DNA from: an uncultured Rubrobacteraceae bacterium
GTDB lineage: Bacteria; Actinomycetota; Rubrobacteria; Rubrobacterales; Rubrobacteraceae
Reading direction: 5' to 3'
NCBI GenBank assembly: GCA_902806085.1
Contig: CADCVH010000010.1
Coordinates: 62,001 to 126,000, forward strand
DNA: 64,000 bases
In this document: in pieces, positions 52,885 through 59,215 of the stretch
Layout: each line of letters begins with the position of its first letter
Numbering within the stretch: position 1 is the stretch's first letter
Position numbers and translations under genes: made by a program
The notes under the pieces: model-generated
The model's database searches: none
What the model saw: the letters and a program-made list of their open reading frames with translations, nothing else
Told to the model about the DNA's origin: nothing

Positions 52885-53342
52885 GCAAGCGGGAGAAGAT
52901 CAAGAGCGGGGGCGTCCGGTTCTCGAAGTTCTCCCTCGTCGGGCTCTCCAACGCGGTCGTGGATATCGGGGTGCTGAACCTTTTTCTGTGGTTGCAGCCG
53001 ACCCGGGAGACCACGGTGCTCGTGCTTTACAACGGCGTCGCGCTCGTGCTCGCGAACGTGAACAGTTATATAGGGAACACGCTGTGGACCTTCCGGGGCC
53101 GCGCGGAGCACAACCTGCGCCAGACGACGCTCTTCTTTCTGCAGGCGCTCCTCAACGTCGGGATCAGCACCGGGATCTTCTGGGCGCTTATACACCCGCT
53201 CCTGGTCGACACGGATATTCCCGCGTACCTGGTCGGGAACGTGGCCAAGATCGTCTCCGTCGCGGTGGCGTCGGTGATCAGCTTTTTCATCCTGCGCTAC
53301 GTGGTCTTCTCCCGAAAACGGTGGTTCAATGGGCGCTTGTAA
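52881..53342 (+). CDS. GtrA-family membrane protein
   Basis: A 153-aa protein with four hydrophobic helices: FSKFSLVGLSNAVVDIGVLNLFL, VLVLYNGVALVLANVNSYIGNTLWTF, FFLQALLNVGISTGIFWAL and VAKIVSVAVASVISFFILRYVVF. NSYIGNTLWTF and FxxRYxVF are GtrA hallmarks. Family members are thought to move lipid-linked sugars across the membrane. It overlaps the glycosyltransferase gene by 4 nt, so they probably work on the same glycolipid. Confidence 0.9.
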   Translation: MSKREKIKSGGVRFSKFSLVGLSNAVVDIGVLNLFLWLQPTRETTVLVLYNGVALVLANVNSYIGNTLWTFRGRAEHNLRQTTLFFLQALLNVGISTGIFWALIHPLLVDTDIPAYLVGNVAKIVSVAVASVISFFILRYVVFSRKRWFNGRL

Positions 53343-53357
53343 GAGCAAATGGGCCGT

Positions 53358-53366
53358 GCTAAATTA
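53358..53366 (+). promoter_or_regulatory. extended -10 promoter of the tRNA cluster
   Basis: TG (53358-53359), one base, TAAATT (53361-53366), 11 nt before the first tRNA. Confidence 0.55.
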
Positions 53367-53376
53367 ACGCGGCACG

Positions 53377-53449
53377 CGGAAGTAGCTCAGCTGGTAGAGC
53401 ATCACCTTGCCATGGTGAGGGTCGCGGGTTCGAATCCCGTCTTCCGCTC
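53377..53449 (+). tRNA. tRNA-Gly (GCC)
   Basis: 73 nt. Acceptor GCGGAAG pairs with CTTCCGC; D-arm GCTC...GAGC; anticodon stem TCACC/GGTGA around TTGCCAT (anticodon GCC); T-arm GCGGG-TTCGAAT-CCCGT; discriminator U. CCA is not encoded. Confidence 0.97.
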
Positions 53450-53465
53450 TGGCCGCGGGCCGACT

Positions 53466-53536
53466 GGCGGCATGGCCGAGTGGTTAGGCAAGGGTCTGCA
53501 AAACCCTGCACCCCGGTTCGACTCCGGGTGCCGCCT
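53466..53536 (+). tRNA. tRNA-Cys (GCA)
   Basis: 71 nt. Acceptor GGCGGCA pairs with TGCCGCC; anticodon loop CTGCAAA (anticodon GCA) on stem AGGGT/ACCCT; T-arm CCCGG-TTCGACT-CCGGG; discriminator U, as usual for tRNA-Cys. CCA is not encoded. Confidence 0.96.
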
Positions 53537-53562
53537 CTCGGAGAGGCCCGCCCAGGGGACAC

Positions 53563-53637
53563 GGGCGATTAGCTCAGGGGGAGAGCGCCTTCCTGACACG
53601 GAGGAGGTCAGTGGTTCGAATCCACTATCGCCCACCA
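53563..53637 (+). tRNA. tRNA-Val (GAC)
   Basis: 72 nt plus an encoded CCA (53635-53637). Acceptor GGGCGAT pairs with ATCGCCC; anticodon loop CTGACAC (anticodon GAC); T-arm AGTGG-TTCGAAT-CCACT; discriminator A. Confidence 0.96.
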
Positions 53638-53641
53638 CGCT

Positions 53642-53669
53642 GCGCCGGCTCCTTCGGATCCACCGGCGC
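53642..53669 (+). terminator. stem-loop after the tRNA cluster
   Basis: GCGCCGG (53642-53648) and CCGGCGC (53663-53669) around a 14-nt loop, 5 nt after tRNA-Val; no T-run. It could end the tRNA transcript or be a processing element before thrS. Confidence 0.45.
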
Positions 53670-53731
53670 ACGAACTACCCGGCCCTAACCCAGGTTCCTT
53701 CCCAAGTCTCCCTTCGAAGAAAGGTCCCCAC

Positions 53732-55645
53732 ATGCCCTCCGTTACCCTCCCAGACGGCAAGCAGTTAGAGGTAAAACCAGGTGCCAAGGCCCGCGACGTG
53801 GTCGAGAGCATCGGCCCGCGCCTGGCCCGCGACGCCGTGGTGGCGAAGCTCGACGGCCGGGTAGTGGACCTCGACGCCCCGCTTGACGGCGGCGGCGCCT
53901 TCGAGGTCCTCACGAAGGATGCCCCGGAGGCGCTCGAGGTGCTCCGGCACTCCACGGCCCACGCCATGGCCCAGGCCATCCTCGAGCTCTTCCCCGGCAG
54001 CAAGCTGACCCTCGGTCCGCCCATTGAGGACGGCTTTTTCTACGACGTCGAGGTCGAAGGGCGCATCACCGACGAGGACCTGCCGCGCATCGAGGAGAGG
54101 ATGCGCGAGATCGTCGCGCGCGACCTGCCCATCACCCGCGAGGAGGTCTCCAAGGGCGAGGCGGAGCGGCTCTACAAGGACAACCCGTACAAGCGTGAGA
54201 TCATCGCCGGCCTCGAAGACGGGGACATCACCGTCTACCGTCAGGGGGACTTTCTCGACCTTTGCCGCGGGCCGCACGTCCAGAGCACGGGCAAGCTCGG
54301 GGCCTTCAAGCTTCAGAACATCGCCGGGGCCTACTGGCGCGGGGACGAGAAGAACACGATGCTCACCCGCGTCTACGGCACGGCCTGGCCGACGGAGAAG
54401 GAGCTCAAGGCCTACCTCAGGCGCCTGGAGGAGGCGAGGGCGAGGGACCACCGCAAGATCGGCAAGGACCTCGACCTCTTCGCCTTCTCGCCAGACGTCG
54501 GCGGGGGCATCCCGCTGTTCCTGCCCAAGGGCGAGATGCTGCGGCACCTCATGGAGGGCTACGTGCGCGAGGTCCAGACCCGGCACGGGTACGACCACGT
54601 CTGGACCGGACATCTCGTAAACGAGTCGCTCTACGAGAAGAGCGGACACCTGGAGCACTACGTCGACTCCATGTTCCCGCCGATGGTCGAGGGCCAGACG
54701 CACTACCGGCTCAAGCCGATGAACTGCCCGAGCCACATGACGCTCTTCAACTCCCGCGCCCACTCCTACAGGGACCTGCCCCTGCGCTACGCCGAGTTCG
54801 CCACGCTCTACCGCTACGAGAAGAGCGGCGAGCTCAACGGCCTCACCCGGGTCCGGAGCCTCACCCAGGACGACGCCCACGTCTTCTGCACCGAAGATCA
54901 GGTCCAGGAGGAGTTCGCCAGGGCCCTCGAGATCGTGCGCGAGGTCCTCGACACCTACGGCTTCGACGAGTACCGCGTCCAGCTCTCCCTACGCGACCCC
55001 GACGACAGCAAGTACATAGCCGACGAACAGAAGTGGGCCAGGGCCGAACAGGAGCTCCGGGAGGCGCTCGACGTGGCCGGCATCGACTACGACGAGGAGG
55101 CCGGGGAGGCCGCATTCTACGGCCCCAAGGCCGACTTCATGGCGAAAGACGTGCTTGGCCGGGAGTGGCAGCTCTCCACGATCCAGGTCGACTTCCTGCA
55201 GCCCTCACGTCTCGGGTGCGAGTACGTCGGCGAGGACGGCAAGGAGCACACGCCCGTCCTGCTGCACCGCGCCGTCACCGGCTCGACGGAGAGGTTTCTC
55301 GGCGTTCTCATAGAGCACTACGCCGGCGCGTTCCCGGTGTGGCTCTCGCCCGTGCAGGCGGTCGTCATCCCCGTCGCCGACCGGCACAACGATTACGCCC
55401 GCGAGGTCCAGAAGAGGCTGGCCGAAGCGGGTATCCGGGTCGAGGTGGACGATGCGCAGAACAGCATGCAGAAGAAGATCCGGGAGAACGCCAGGCAGAA
55501 GATCCCGTACCTGCTCATCGTGGGCGACAACGAGAGCGAGGCCGGAACCGTGAACGTGCGCCGCCGGGGCGAGAAGCAGCAGGAAGAGCTGGTCCTGGAG
55601 GCGTTTACGGAGGGCGTTCTGGAGCAGGTGCGTTCGCGCGCATAG
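53732..55645 (+). CDS. thrS: threonyl-tRNA synthetase
   Basis: A 637-aa class II synthetase with every domain. The TGS domain spans about 1-60 (VTLPDGKQLEVKPG). The editing/SAD domain has the HSTAHAMAQAI and DFLDLCRGPHV zinc-type motifs. The catalytic core has YDHVWTGHLVNESL, MNCPSHM (zinc Cys), RYAEFATLYRYEKSGELNGLTRVR and DDAHVF. Motif 3 is GSTERFLGVLIEHYAG, and the anticodon-binding domain is C-terminal (VQAVVIPVAD...). Its mRNA leader is short and shows no T-box. Start ATG 53732. Confidence 0.98.
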   Translation: MPSVTLPDGKQLEVKPGAKARDVVESIGPRLARDAVVAKLDGRVVDLDAPLDGGGAFEVLTKDAPEALEVLRHSTAHAMAQAILELFPGSKLTLGPPIEDGFFYDVEVEGRITDEDLPRIEERMREIVARDLPITREEVSKGEAERLYKDNPYKREIIAGLEDGDITVYRQGDFLDLCRGPHVQSTGKLGAFKLQNIAGAYWRGDEKNTMLTRVYGTAWPTEKELKAYLRRLEEARARDHRKIGKDLDLFAFSPDVGGGIPLFLPKGEMLRHLMEGYVREVQTRHGYDHVWTGHLVNESLYEKSGHLEHYVDSMFPPMVEGQTHYRLKPMNCPSHMTLFNSRAHSYRDLPLRYAEFATLYRYEKSGELNGLTRVRSLTQDDAHVFCTEDQVQEEFARALEIVREVLDTYGFDEYRVQLSLRDPDDSKYIADEQKWARAEQELREALDVAGIDYDEEAGEAAFYGPKADFMAKDVLGREWQLSTIQVDFLQPSRLGCEYVGEDGKEHTPVLLHRAVTGSTERFLGVLIEHYAGAFPVWLSPVQAVVIPVADRHNDYAREVQKRLAEAGIRVEVDDAQNSMQKKIRENARQKIPYLLIVGDNESEAGTVNVRRRGEKQQEELVLEAFTEGVLEQVRSRA

Positions 55646-55663
55646 TTTCAGGATAGTTTCATA

Positions 55664-55693
55664 TAGACACGGGCGACGGGCGAGGGGTATAAT
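55664..55693 (+). promoter_or_regulatory. promoter of the infC-rpmI-rplT operon
   Basis: TAGACA (55664-55669, one mismatch to TTGACA), 18-nt spacer and a perfect TATAAT (55688-55693). The best consensus promoter in the window. The leader is about 100 nt and may carry operon autoregulation. Confidence 0.72.
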
Positions 55694-55797
55694 ATTGGGG
55701 ATAGTTGGGGTTCGCAGTCCTTCCGTTGCAAAAGCAGATCACGTCGAGGGATATACGGGCGGCCCCGAAAACAAGGTTTTGAGAGGAGTGGTGCACA

Positions 55798-56403
55798 GTA
55801 GCGACTGAAGAAGAGCCGCGAATAAACGGCCAGATCCGGGCGCGCAGCGTCAGGTTGATCGCGGCCGACGGCGAGCAGCTAGGCATCAAGCACATCAAAG
55901 AGGCGATCGATCTCGGGGAGAGGGCGGACCTCGACCTCGTGGAGGTCGCGCCGAACGCGGACCCGCCGGTGGTCCGGATGATGGACTACGGCAAGTTCAA
56001 GTACCAGAAAGAGCAGGCCCGCAAGGCCGCCCGCAAAAAGCAGGTCAACGTCAACGTGCGGGAGATCAAGCTCAGGCCCAAGATCGGGGACAACGACTTC
56101 AACACCAAGCGCGGCCACGTCGAGCGCTTCCTGCGCGGCGGCGACAAGGTCAAGGTCACCATTATGTTCCGGGGCCGCGAGGTGCAGCACCCGGCGCTTG
56201 GCGAGAAGCTCCTCAGGCGTCTTGCCGAAGACCTCGACGAACTCGGGCGCATAGAGAGCCAGCCCAACCTGGACGGCCGGAACATGATCATGGTCATGTC
56301 CCCGAAGAAGGTCGTGAAGGAAGAGACCGACGCCGAAGAGCCGCAACCGGAGCCCGAGCCGCAGCGCTCCGGCAGCCGGCGCGAGAGGGCGGCTCGTCGG
56401 TAA
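55798..56403 (+). CDS. infC: translation initiation factor IF-3 (non-canonical start)
   Basis: About 201 aa. The conserved N-terminal strand EPRINGQIRARSVRLIAADGEQLGI precedes DLVEVAPNADPPVVRMMDYGKF and the C-terminal domain with KLRPKIGDNDFNTK. IF-3 keeps the start codon at the P site and prevents subunit association. In frame, no ATG, GTG or TTG precedes this N-terminus after the TGA at 55780-55782; the first TTG (55855) would delete it. GTA at 55798 lies 9 nt after AGAGGAG (55782-55788), so I place the start there. E. coli infC also uses a rare start (AUU) for self-regulation. The tail is Glu/Pro/Arg-rich. Confidence 0.88.
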   Translation, partial: VATEEEPRINGQIRARSVRLIAADGEQLGIKHIKEAIDLGERADLDLVEVAPNADPPVVRMMDYGKFKYQKEQARKAARKKQVNVNVREIKLRPKIGDNDFNTKRGHVERFLRGGDKVKVTIMFRGREVQHPALGEKLLRRLAEDLDELGRIESQPNLDGRNMIMVMSPKKVVKEETDAEEPQPEPEPQRSGSRRERAARR

Positions 56404-56511
56404 AGCAACAGTTTGATACACTCTCACAGTTCCAAAGAGGCGAAACGGCTTCGACTCCCGTGCCGCGAGCCTCTCTGCAGATAATCGGCCAGACGAAACG
56501 CGGAGGAAAAC

Positions 56512-56709
56512 ATGCCGAAGATGAAGACCCACAAGGGCGCCGCCGGGCGCTTTGAGGTAGGCAAGAAGGGCCGCCTCAAACGACGCCGGGCGGGACACAA
56601 CCACATCCTGGAGAAGAAGAGCAGGAAGCGCAAGCGACGGCTCAACACCGAGACCGTCATCCACGCCTCCGACGAGAAGAAGCTTAAGCGTCTTTTGGGG
56701 GTGAGGTAG
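56512..56709 (+). CDS. rpmI: 50S ribosomal protein L35
   Basis: A 65-aa very basic protein opening MPKMKTHKGAAGRF, with GHNHILEKKSRKRKRRL, a textbook bL35. GGAGG is a few bases before the ATG. It follows infC by 108 bp and is immediately followed by rplT. Confidence 0.98.
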   Translation: MPKMKTHKGAAGRFEVGKKGRLKRRRAGHNHILEKKSRKRKRRLNTETVIHASDEKKLKRLLGVR

Positions 56710-57495
56710 ATGGCGCGCACCGCCAGGAGCGTCCACGCCCGCAAGAAGCGCCGGAAGGTGCTGGAGCAGGCCAAGGGCTACAGGGGGACCAAGCACAGCT
56801 CGTACAAGCGGGCCAAGGAGCAGGTCTGGAAGAGCGGCGTCTACGCCTACCAGGGGCGCAAGCAGCGCAAGCGTGACTTCCGGGCGCTCTGGATCCAGCG
56901 CATCAACGCCGGCGCCCGCGAGCACGGCGTGTCCTACTCGCAGTTGATCCACGGCCTGCGCCTGGCCGAGATAGACCTCGACCGCAAGATCCTCGCCGAC
57001 CTCGCCGCCACCGAACCGGAGATCTTTGCCGGCATCGTCGCCCAGGCGAAGAACGCCATGGAGGGCAACCCCGTCGAGTCGCGCGTCGCCGTCGAGCGCA
57101 AGCCCGAACCGGCCCCGGAGCCGAAGCCCAGGGCTCGCAAGAAGCCCGCAGCCGAGGCCACGCCCGCGGCTCAGCCCGCCACCGAACCCGAGCCCACGCC
57201 GGCCACGCAGGCAACGGGTGCCGACGAGCAACCCGAGGTCGAGGCCACGGAGGCCGAGGAGCTCGACGTGGACATCGATCCCATAGAAGAGGGCTCCGGC
57301 GCCGAGGGACGCGTCCTCGTGGAGGACGTTGAGGAGGCCGCGGAAGAGGGGGGCAAGGTACAGGCGACCGACGCCGCGGAGGGCAAAGCCGAAGAGTTGG
57401 GTGTCGACCTCTCCGCCGTCGAGGGCACGGGCCAGGAAGGCCGCATCACCGTGGGCGACGTCGAGAAGGCCGCGAAGGATGGGGAAGACGGCTAA
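56710..57495 (+). CDS. rplT: 50S ribosomal protein L20 with long C-terminal extension
   Basis: A 261-aa protein. Residues 1-118 are standard bL20 (RSVHARKKRRKVLEQAKGYRG, ALWIQRINAGAREHG, YSQLIHGL). The remaining 143 residues are unusual: a Pro/Ala/Glu linker (about 120-180) followed by two similar motifs. These are EELDVDIDPIEEGSG (from residue 183) and EELGVDLSAVEGTG (from 228), each ending GRV/I-x-V-x-DVE. They resemble the peripheral-subunit (E3)-binding domain of 2-oxoacid dehydrogenase E2 enzymes. No stop or frameshift separates core and tail. The 3' end overlaps the methyltransferase gene by 17 nt. Confidence 0.95.
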   Translation: MARTARSVHARKKRRKVLEQAKGYRGTKHSSYKRAKEQVWKSGVYAYQGRKQRKRDFRALWIQRINAGAREHGVSYSQLIHGLRLAEIDLDRKILADLAATEPEIFAGIVAQAKNAMEGNPVESRVAVERKPEPAPEPKPRARKKPAAEATPAAQPATEPEPTPATQATGADEQPEVEATEAEELDVDIDPIEEGSGAEGRVLVEDVEEAAEEGGKVQATDAAEGKAEELGVDLSAVEGTGQEGRITVGDVEKAAKDGEDG

Positions 57496-58177
57496 CCCCT
57501 GGTACGAGATCTCGCCCAAAAGGGCGGCGAAACTAAACGTAAAGAAGCACCGGGAGGCCGAGAGCCTCTTCCTGGCGGAGGGAGAAGCCCTTGTTCGGGA
57601 GTCCCCGTCGCCCCCGGTGCGAACGTTCGAATCCGAGGCCGAAGTGCGCCGCGTGTCGTCGCTAAAGACCCCGGCCGGCCCGGTCGGGGTCTTTCCCTTT
57701 CTCGACGTCTCGGTGGAGGAATTGCTGACCGCCCGGGACCGCGTCATCCTCCTGCACGGCGTCCAGGACCCCGGAAACGTTGGCACCGCGATACGCAGCG
57801 CCCACGCTTTCGGGGCGGGGGTCGCGCTCTCCACCGGCTGCGCCGACCTCTACAACCCGAAGACCGTCAGGGCCACGATGGGCTCCCTCTTCCACGCCCC
57901 GGTCGCCCGGGAACTCGATGCTCTCGACTTCTTGGGCCGCGCCGGTACCGCGGGATTCCGGACGGTCGCGGCGGTGCCGGGCGGGGGAGAGGCGCCGGGT
58001 TCTTTCCTGGCCGGTAAGTCCGTGGTGGTCGTCGGGGCGGAGGGTTCCGGGCTGCCGGAGGCGGTCCTGAAGAAGTGCGATGCCCGGGTCACCGTTCCGT
58101 CGCGGGCGGCCTCGCTGAACGCGGCGGTGGCGGCCTCGATCCTGCTCTACCACGCTTATTCGCGTGTGCTAGGATAG
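57479..58177 (+). CDS. TrmH/SpoU-family RNA 2'-O-methyltransferase
   Basis: A 232-aa SPOUT (trefoil-knot) enzyme. An N-terminal RNA-binding part (LNVKKHREAESLFLAEGEALV, about 18-40) precedes the knot motifs VILLHGVQDPGNVGTAIRSAHAFG (motif 1), VVVGAEGSGLPEAVL (motif 2) and VPSRAASLNAAVAASILLYHA (motif 3). It would methylate a ribose in 23S rRNA or tRNA. The gene sits between rplT and pheS as in many bacteria. ATG 57479 lies inside the rplT end. Confidence 0.93.
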   Translation: MGKTANPWYEISPKRAAKLNVKKHREAESLFLAEGEALVRESPSPPVRTFESEAEVRRVSSLKTPAGPVGVFPFLDVSVEELLTARDRVILLHGVQDPGNVGTAIRSAHAFGAGVALSTGCADLYNPKTVRATMGSLFHAPVARELDALDFLGRAGTAGFRTVAAVPGGGEAPGSFLAGKSVVVVGAEGSGLPEAVLKKCDARVTVPSRAASLNAAVAASILLYHAYSRVLG

Positions 58178-58186
58178 ACGCCCATC

Positions 58187-59215
58187 ATGACGGCAACCGA
58201 CCGCATAGAGGAGCTGAAGAACGCGGCGCTCGCGGCCGTGCGGGCCGCCGATACCACGGCCGCTCTGGAAGAGTTGCGGGTTCGCTATCTCGGCAGGTCG
58301 GCGGAGCTGACCGAGATCAAGAAGAGCATCGGCAAGCTCTCCCAGGAAGAGCGAAAAGGGGTCGGACGTTCGGCGAACCTCGCTTCGCGGGAGATCGAAG
58401 GCGCGCTCGCCGCCAGGACCGACGCGCTCGCCGCCGCTGAACGCGAGGCCCGGCTCCGGAAGGAGGCCGTCGACGCGACGCTTCCTGGCGTGCCTTTCCC
58501 GAGGGGGCACCTGCACCCTTCGCAGAGGATCATCGACGAGGTCGTGGACTTTTTCGTGGGCCTCGGCTACGGCGTTGCGGAGGGGCCGGAGGCCGAGACG
58601 GATTACTACAACTTCACCGCCCTTGGCATCCCGCCGGGGCACCCGGCCCGCACGATGCAGGACACGTTCTTTTTGGACGAGGGGCTCGTGCTCAGGACGC
58701 ACACCTCGCCGGTGCAGGTCAGGACGATGCTCTCCCAGGAGCCGCCCGTCTACGTCGTCTGCCCCGGGCGGACCTACCGGCGGGACTCCGACCCGACCCA
58801 CACGCCGATGTTCCACCAGATCGAGGGTTTGGCGGTGGACCGCGGCCTCACCCTCGGGCACCTGAAGGGGACGCTGGCGGCGATGGCGCGCCACGTCTTC
58901 GGCGAGGACGTGAACGTCAGGCTAAGGCCGAGCTACTTCCAGTTCACCGAGCCGAGCGTGGAGCTCGACGTGAGTTGCTTCCGGTGCGGCGGCAGCGACG
59001 CTCACTGCAAGGTCTGCAAGGGCGCCGGCTGGCTGGAGATGCTCGGCGCCGGGATGGTGGACCCTGACGTCCTCGAGGAGGCCGGGTACGATTCCGAAGA
59101 ATACACCGGCTTCGCTTTCGGGATGGGGCCGGACCGCATGGCGATGGCCAAGTACGGCATCCCGGACCTGCGCCTCTTCTTCGAGGGCGACCTCCGCTTT
59201 CTGCGTCAGTTTTAG
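58187..59215 (+). CDS. pheS: phenylalanyl-tRNA synthetase alpha subunit
   Basis: A 342-aa catalytic subunit. An N-terminal coiled coil (about 1-90) is followed by HPSQRIIDEVVDFFVGLGYGVAEGPE, DTFFLDEGLVLRTHTSPVQVR, GRTYRRDSDPTHTPMFHQIEGL (class II motif 2) and GMGPDRMAMAKYGIPDLR (motif 3). It pairs with PheT as an (alpha-beta)2 enzyme. 10 nt after the methyltransferase gene. Confidence 0.98.
   Translation: MTATDRIEELKNAALAAVRAADTTAALEELRVRYLGRSAELTEIKKSIGKLSQEERKGVGRSANLASREIEGALAARTDALAAAEREARLRKEAVDATLPGVPFPRGHLHPSQRIIDEVVDFFVGLGYGVAEGPEAETDYYNFTALGIPPGHPARTMQDTFFLDEGLVLRTHTSPVQVRTMLSQEPPVYVVCPGRTYRRDSDPTHTPMFHQIEGLAVDRGLTLGHLKGTLAAMARHVFGEDVNVRLRPSYFQFTEPSVELDVSCFRCGGSDAHCKVCKGAGWLEMLGAGMVDPDVLEEAGYDSEEYTGFAFGMGPDRMAMAKYGIPDLRLFFEGDLRFLRQF

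Follow-up and report, generated by a model that had tools for sequence, protein, structure and literature searches.

The infC gene of an uncultured Rubrobacteraceae bacterium, found in a window of 64,000 nucleotides, carries no in-frame ATG, GTG or TTG at its conserved N-terminus, and comparison with related genomes strongly supports a start at the GTA of positions 55798-55800. We propose, with a probability of roughly 0.85, that this GUA is read by the CAU initiator, that an extended Shine-Dalgarno (SD) sequence assists it, and that it serves a self-limiting IF3 loop as AUU does in E. coli. The broader proposal, that the whole family uses a natural GUA start for infC, selected as an IF3 homeostat and workable thanks to an extended SD helix with a bulge, appears likely, with somewhat less confidence.

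The identity of the product was established from its domains and its neighbours.

Positions 55798 to 56403, plus strand: infC, encoding an IF3 of 201 aa (fMet-Ala-Thr-Glu-Glu-Glu-Pro-Arg-Ile-Asn...), with matches to TIGR00168, PF05198, PF00707 and IF3 chains of the PDB.

With 213 bits for the NCBIfam model TIGR00168 (cut-off 60), the product passes the IF3 equivalog test, and both the N- and C-terminal Pfam domains of IF3 (PF05198 and PF00707) are present. R99, K110, R116, R147 and R168 of E. coli IF3, which are important for its activity, have identical counterparts in Rubrobacter IF3. The gene lies between thrS on one side and rpmI-rplT on the other, and infC was found in all 39 Rubrobacteraceae genomes examined. 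The neighbouring rplT (56710-57495) encodes bL20 (a 107-residue domain) followed by a long C-terminal tail, two stretches of which match the peripheral subunit-binding family E3_binding (PF02817, 3e-15). This domain belongs to 2-oxoacid dehydrogenase complexes, and finding it joined to a ribosomal protein is unexpected. Similar tails occur in many relatives, with total lengths of 195-295 aa, unlike the plain 120-aa L20 of genomes L012 and L028.

Three elements delimit the start region.

Positions 55780 to 55782, plus strand: in-frame TGA closing the infC frame upstream, from the sequence and the comparison of relatives.
Positions 55798 to 55800, plus strand: GTA, proposed infC start codon, with 36 GTA and one ATA in 37 genomes and no third-base change on the tree.
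Positions 55855 to 55857, plus strand: TTG, the first in-frame canonical codon, rejected as the start since its position varies in relatives.

After the TGA, the frame reads GAG GAG TGG TGC ACA GTA GCG ACT GAA GAA GAG CCG and continues with CGA ATA AAC GGC CAG ATC CGG into the RINGQIR motif. The GTA is six codons downstream of the TGA, and the 3' end of AGGAG (55784-55788) is 9 nt upstream of it. Counting GTA as codon 1, TTG 55855 is codon 20, while GTG 55788 and GTG 55791 are both outside the infC frame. The first-pass annotation had described a gene without a standard start ahead of this TTG, and was correct on that point as well as in its coordinates for the TGA, the codon run up to GTA and the SD 9 nt before it.

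It had also called for an alignment of the infC start regions of relatives, which revealed the same arrangement almost throughout the family, beyond what chance would produce. The start region is included in 37 of the 39 Rubrobacteraceae genomes, the base for all start-codon counts given here. The order AGGAG-N9-GTA-GCN was found in 36 species genomes covering all 13 Rubrobacteraceae genera, and the remaining genome has ATA. The island AGGAGTGNTNNNCNGTAGC occurs in all 13 genera, in a single copy per matching genome. The distance from SD to GTA is 9 nt in all 36 GTA genomes, including the most divergent one (L118), where the spacer is mostly changed and the SD, the distance and the GTA are kept. 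In the ATA genome (G032, L026), whose sequence is identical to that of the named MAG L035, the distance is 8 nt, and the ATA results from this spacer being one base shorter. The same loss of one base also brings the two GTGs beside the SD into frame in L026 and L035.

These alignments exclude a sequencing or assembly error, in which a lost or gained base would hide a GTG or ATG start. A one-base deletion in the window would indeed put GTG 55788/55791 in frame, and the first-pass annotation had listed such an error for checking. However, the same sequence recurs across all 13 genera, in 36 genomes, some of which, such as that of Rubrobacter marinus (L034), are complete; this refutes the explanation and reduces its likelihood to a negligible level.

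The codon itself is, on this comparative evidence, conserved beyond what coding explains. On an infC tree of 36 genomes, the ATA genome among them, the third base of GTA underwent no change, whereas 30 further four-fold sites in infC changed 3-19 times each. GTA accounts for 42 of the 391 codons (10.7%, ~11%) in 11 other conserved Val columns; in selected window genes, 10 of the 221 codons for Val are GTA. An ordinary internal Val codon would not be expected to show such invariance. Codon 2 is Ala in 37/37 genomes, encoded by GCG, GCC, GCA or GCT; an invariant residue with all four third bases indicates that coding begins at or before this codon. In nine genomes, a TGA lies in frame between the SD and the GTA (GAG TGA TGC ACA GTA), so that the start must follow it, and an upstream in-frame canonical start is absent from 32/37 genomes.

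A start at the downstream TTG 55855, giving an N-terminally truncated IF3, would have the merit of using a standard in-frame start codon, the first to occur. We consider it very unlikely. The first downstream canonical codon varies in kind as well as in position (+17 in most relatives, +19, +36, +47 or +57 in others), and in six relatives (+36 to +57) it falls deep in the N domain; no conserved start therefore exists there. Moreover, codons 5' of the TTG are conserved at the protein level (Ala2, INxQIR), and in all genomes a suitably spaced SD precedes the GTA.

The sequence preceding the GTA is predicted to pair extensively with the 16S rRNA.

Positions 55781 to 55792, plus strand: extended SD GAGAGGA/GTGGT, from RNAduplex and the invariance of AGGAGTG.

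RNAduplex predicts that GAGAGGA/GTGGT forms 12 base pairs with the 3' tail of the 16S rRNA, interrupted by a single bulged C on the rRNA side, and one further pair past a mismatch. Relatives have the usual GGATCACCTCCTTTCT at the 3' end of their 16S rRNA; of 26 genomes, 11 matched the search pattern, and these carry the canonical anti-SD. The computed energy is -17.8 kcal/mol for the window sequence; in relatives it lies between -15.0 and -18.6 kcal/mol, with L118 as the exception (-10.6). Selected genes of the window range from -2.9 to -14.3 kcal/mol; the strength of the duplex is not unique, since values of -18 or lower occur at two other ORF starts, and 10 of 2000 random 22-mers of the window attain -17.8 or lower. 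AGGAGTG is invariant in 36 genomes, and the base after it (-7) is a purine in 35 of these 36. As G and A at -7 both pair with U, the conserved GTGRT is explained without a second reading frame.

This point bears on a reading in which ribosomes begin either at GTG 55788, which is out of frame, or at GTG/ATG 55791 and then move by +1 into the IF3 frame at AGT-A-GC. The invariance of GAGTG, which keeps a GTG available in the other frame in every case, and the in-frame GTGs of L026 speak for it. However, extended SD pairing accounts for the same invariant bases, and these GTG codons share bases with the SD or sit right next to it (0-2 nt), so close that it could not serve them. In addition, the TGA of the GTG frame and the second RTG vary among relatives, no slippery signal was recognised, and L118 has CGT AGC at the presumed site. 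Such a frameshift is thus highly improbable. A conserved mini-ORF overlapping the infC start was also considered and rejected: about eight genomes lack its TGA, and it would begin within the SD. Likewise, a special initiator tRNA reading GUA was discarded, because a search with an initiator-type anticodon-arm pattern returned one tRNA gene, with anticodon CAT.

Upstream of the leader, a promoter was identified.

Positions 55664 to 55693, plus strand: infC promoter TAGACA-18-TATAAT, with 11/12 consensus matches.

A conserved T[A/G]GAC-N-TATAAT promoter lies about 100 nt 5' of infC in the family. Among the 38 family loci listed, in which R. marinus is counted twice, 35 have a -35-like element together with a -10, and 37 have TATAAT or TATACT. 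Given this conservation in nearly all Rubrobacteraceae, a transcript of infC probably starts separately, downstream of thrS. No Rfam leader family, the L20 leader included, was detected at E<=1 in 53000-58500, and the infC leader folds no better than shuffled sequences (z 0.47). With neither an Rfam match nor a fold signal, control of an infC-rpmI-rplT operon by a Bacillus-type L20 leader was set aside.

To place the codon in its lineage, the codon behind the SD was compared in 84 other actinobacterial infC genes; by automatic and approximate calls, doubtful for L039, L049, L062, L123 and L124, it is ATC in 67, ATA in 4, GTC in 3 and ATT in 1. One outgroup gene (L058) has an apparent ATG start. 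The spacing seen in Rubrobacteraceae is kept in several relatives outside the family, for example GAGGAGTGCAAGCAA-ATA-GCT in L072 and AGGAGGTGATGCGGG-GTC in L122. Apparent starts at GTC, another rare GTN codon, were observed in L122, L125 and L038. A search for the pattern SD-GTA-RINxxIR in 396 genomes of the phylum returned 33 Rubrobacteraceae and two others, L133 and L134, which on inspection by hand have ATT starts and were dismissed as GTA cases outside the family. As most outgroup infC genes already have a rare codon at this place, the GTA looks like a substitution within inherited control. The first-pass annotation had suggested an independent version of the E. coli mechanism; the rare start is strongly supported by the conservation of GTA, its independence is not supported, and the control by GTA looks like a variant of a known one, derived from ancestors that already used a rare codon and not invented separately.

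Regarding the mechanism, we infer that the ordinary CAU initiator tRNA decodes GUA as fMet, with an unusually long SD:anti-SD helix keeping the 30S subunit in register. The GUA:CAU pairing would combine a first-position G.U with a third-position mismatch, and IF3 would therefore be expected to destabilise the 30S complex. High IF3 would then lower its own synthesis and low IF3 would raise it. By analogy with other species, such self-limitation through the infC GUA is plausible. IF3 is described as rejecting weak start codons, and a rare infC start as closing a homeostatic loop in E. coli (PMC5472188). In an in vitro survey in E. coli, IF3 accepted nothing but Watson-Crick pairing at the first codon position (PMC10158994), from which GUA with CAU might be a very weak start. 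The codon could also merely keep infC translation low, with no meaningful IF3 feedback: a weak start cuts the yield at any IF3 level, and rare codons set ccpN and cvfC1 low in S. aureus (PMC13009471). Against this, rare codons recur, as different codons across related lineages, precisely at the gene of the factor that discriminates start codons, and those of E. coli and Streptomyces infC are described as autoregulatory (PMC5472188); we regard this explanation as unlikely. IF3 feedback is the likeliest purpose of the GUA, given the rejection of weak starts by IF3 and the parallels in E. coli, Streptomyces and recJ.

If this is true, gene finders restricted to ATG, GTG and TTG would misplace infC throughout Rubrobacteraceae. 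The natural series of codons, GTA and ATA in the family and GTC, ATC, ATA and ATT in its neighbours, allows one to ask what is the weakest start workable for IF3 feedback, and in what way an extended SD makes up for the weakness. In the literature searched, which left most subscription journals outside, no natural GUA start for infC was found.

A rare start codon at infC is textbook knowledge. E. coli infC shares with the present case the gene, the rare near-cognate start and the homology of IF3; it differs in using AUU instead of GUA, and IF3 autocontrol is known there and inferred here. Haggerty and Lovett (1997) reportedly found that mutations in IF3 suppress a GUA initiation mutant of E. 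coli recJ. As far as that account goes, initiation at GUA would likewise be controlled by IF3, in a laboratory mutation of another gene, whereas the start proposed here is natural and conserved. In Streptomyces, infC starts with ATC, and the GTC start of sigR is repressed by IF3 in vivo (PMC5472188). The first offers an actinobacterial infC with a rare start and the second a rare GTN codon, as in Rubrobacteraceae infC; however, the third base is C instead of A, and the GTC start belongs to sigR, not to infC. Finally, Ribo-Ret revealed the AUA start of S. aureus infC, and the same study reports extended SDs in front of rare starts, this one among them (PMC13009471). The arrangement is alike, a rare start behind an extended SD, and AGGAGT in our sequence fits the AGGNGT motif of that study (PMC13009471), but AUA pairs in Watson-Crick fashion at the first position and belongs to another lineage.
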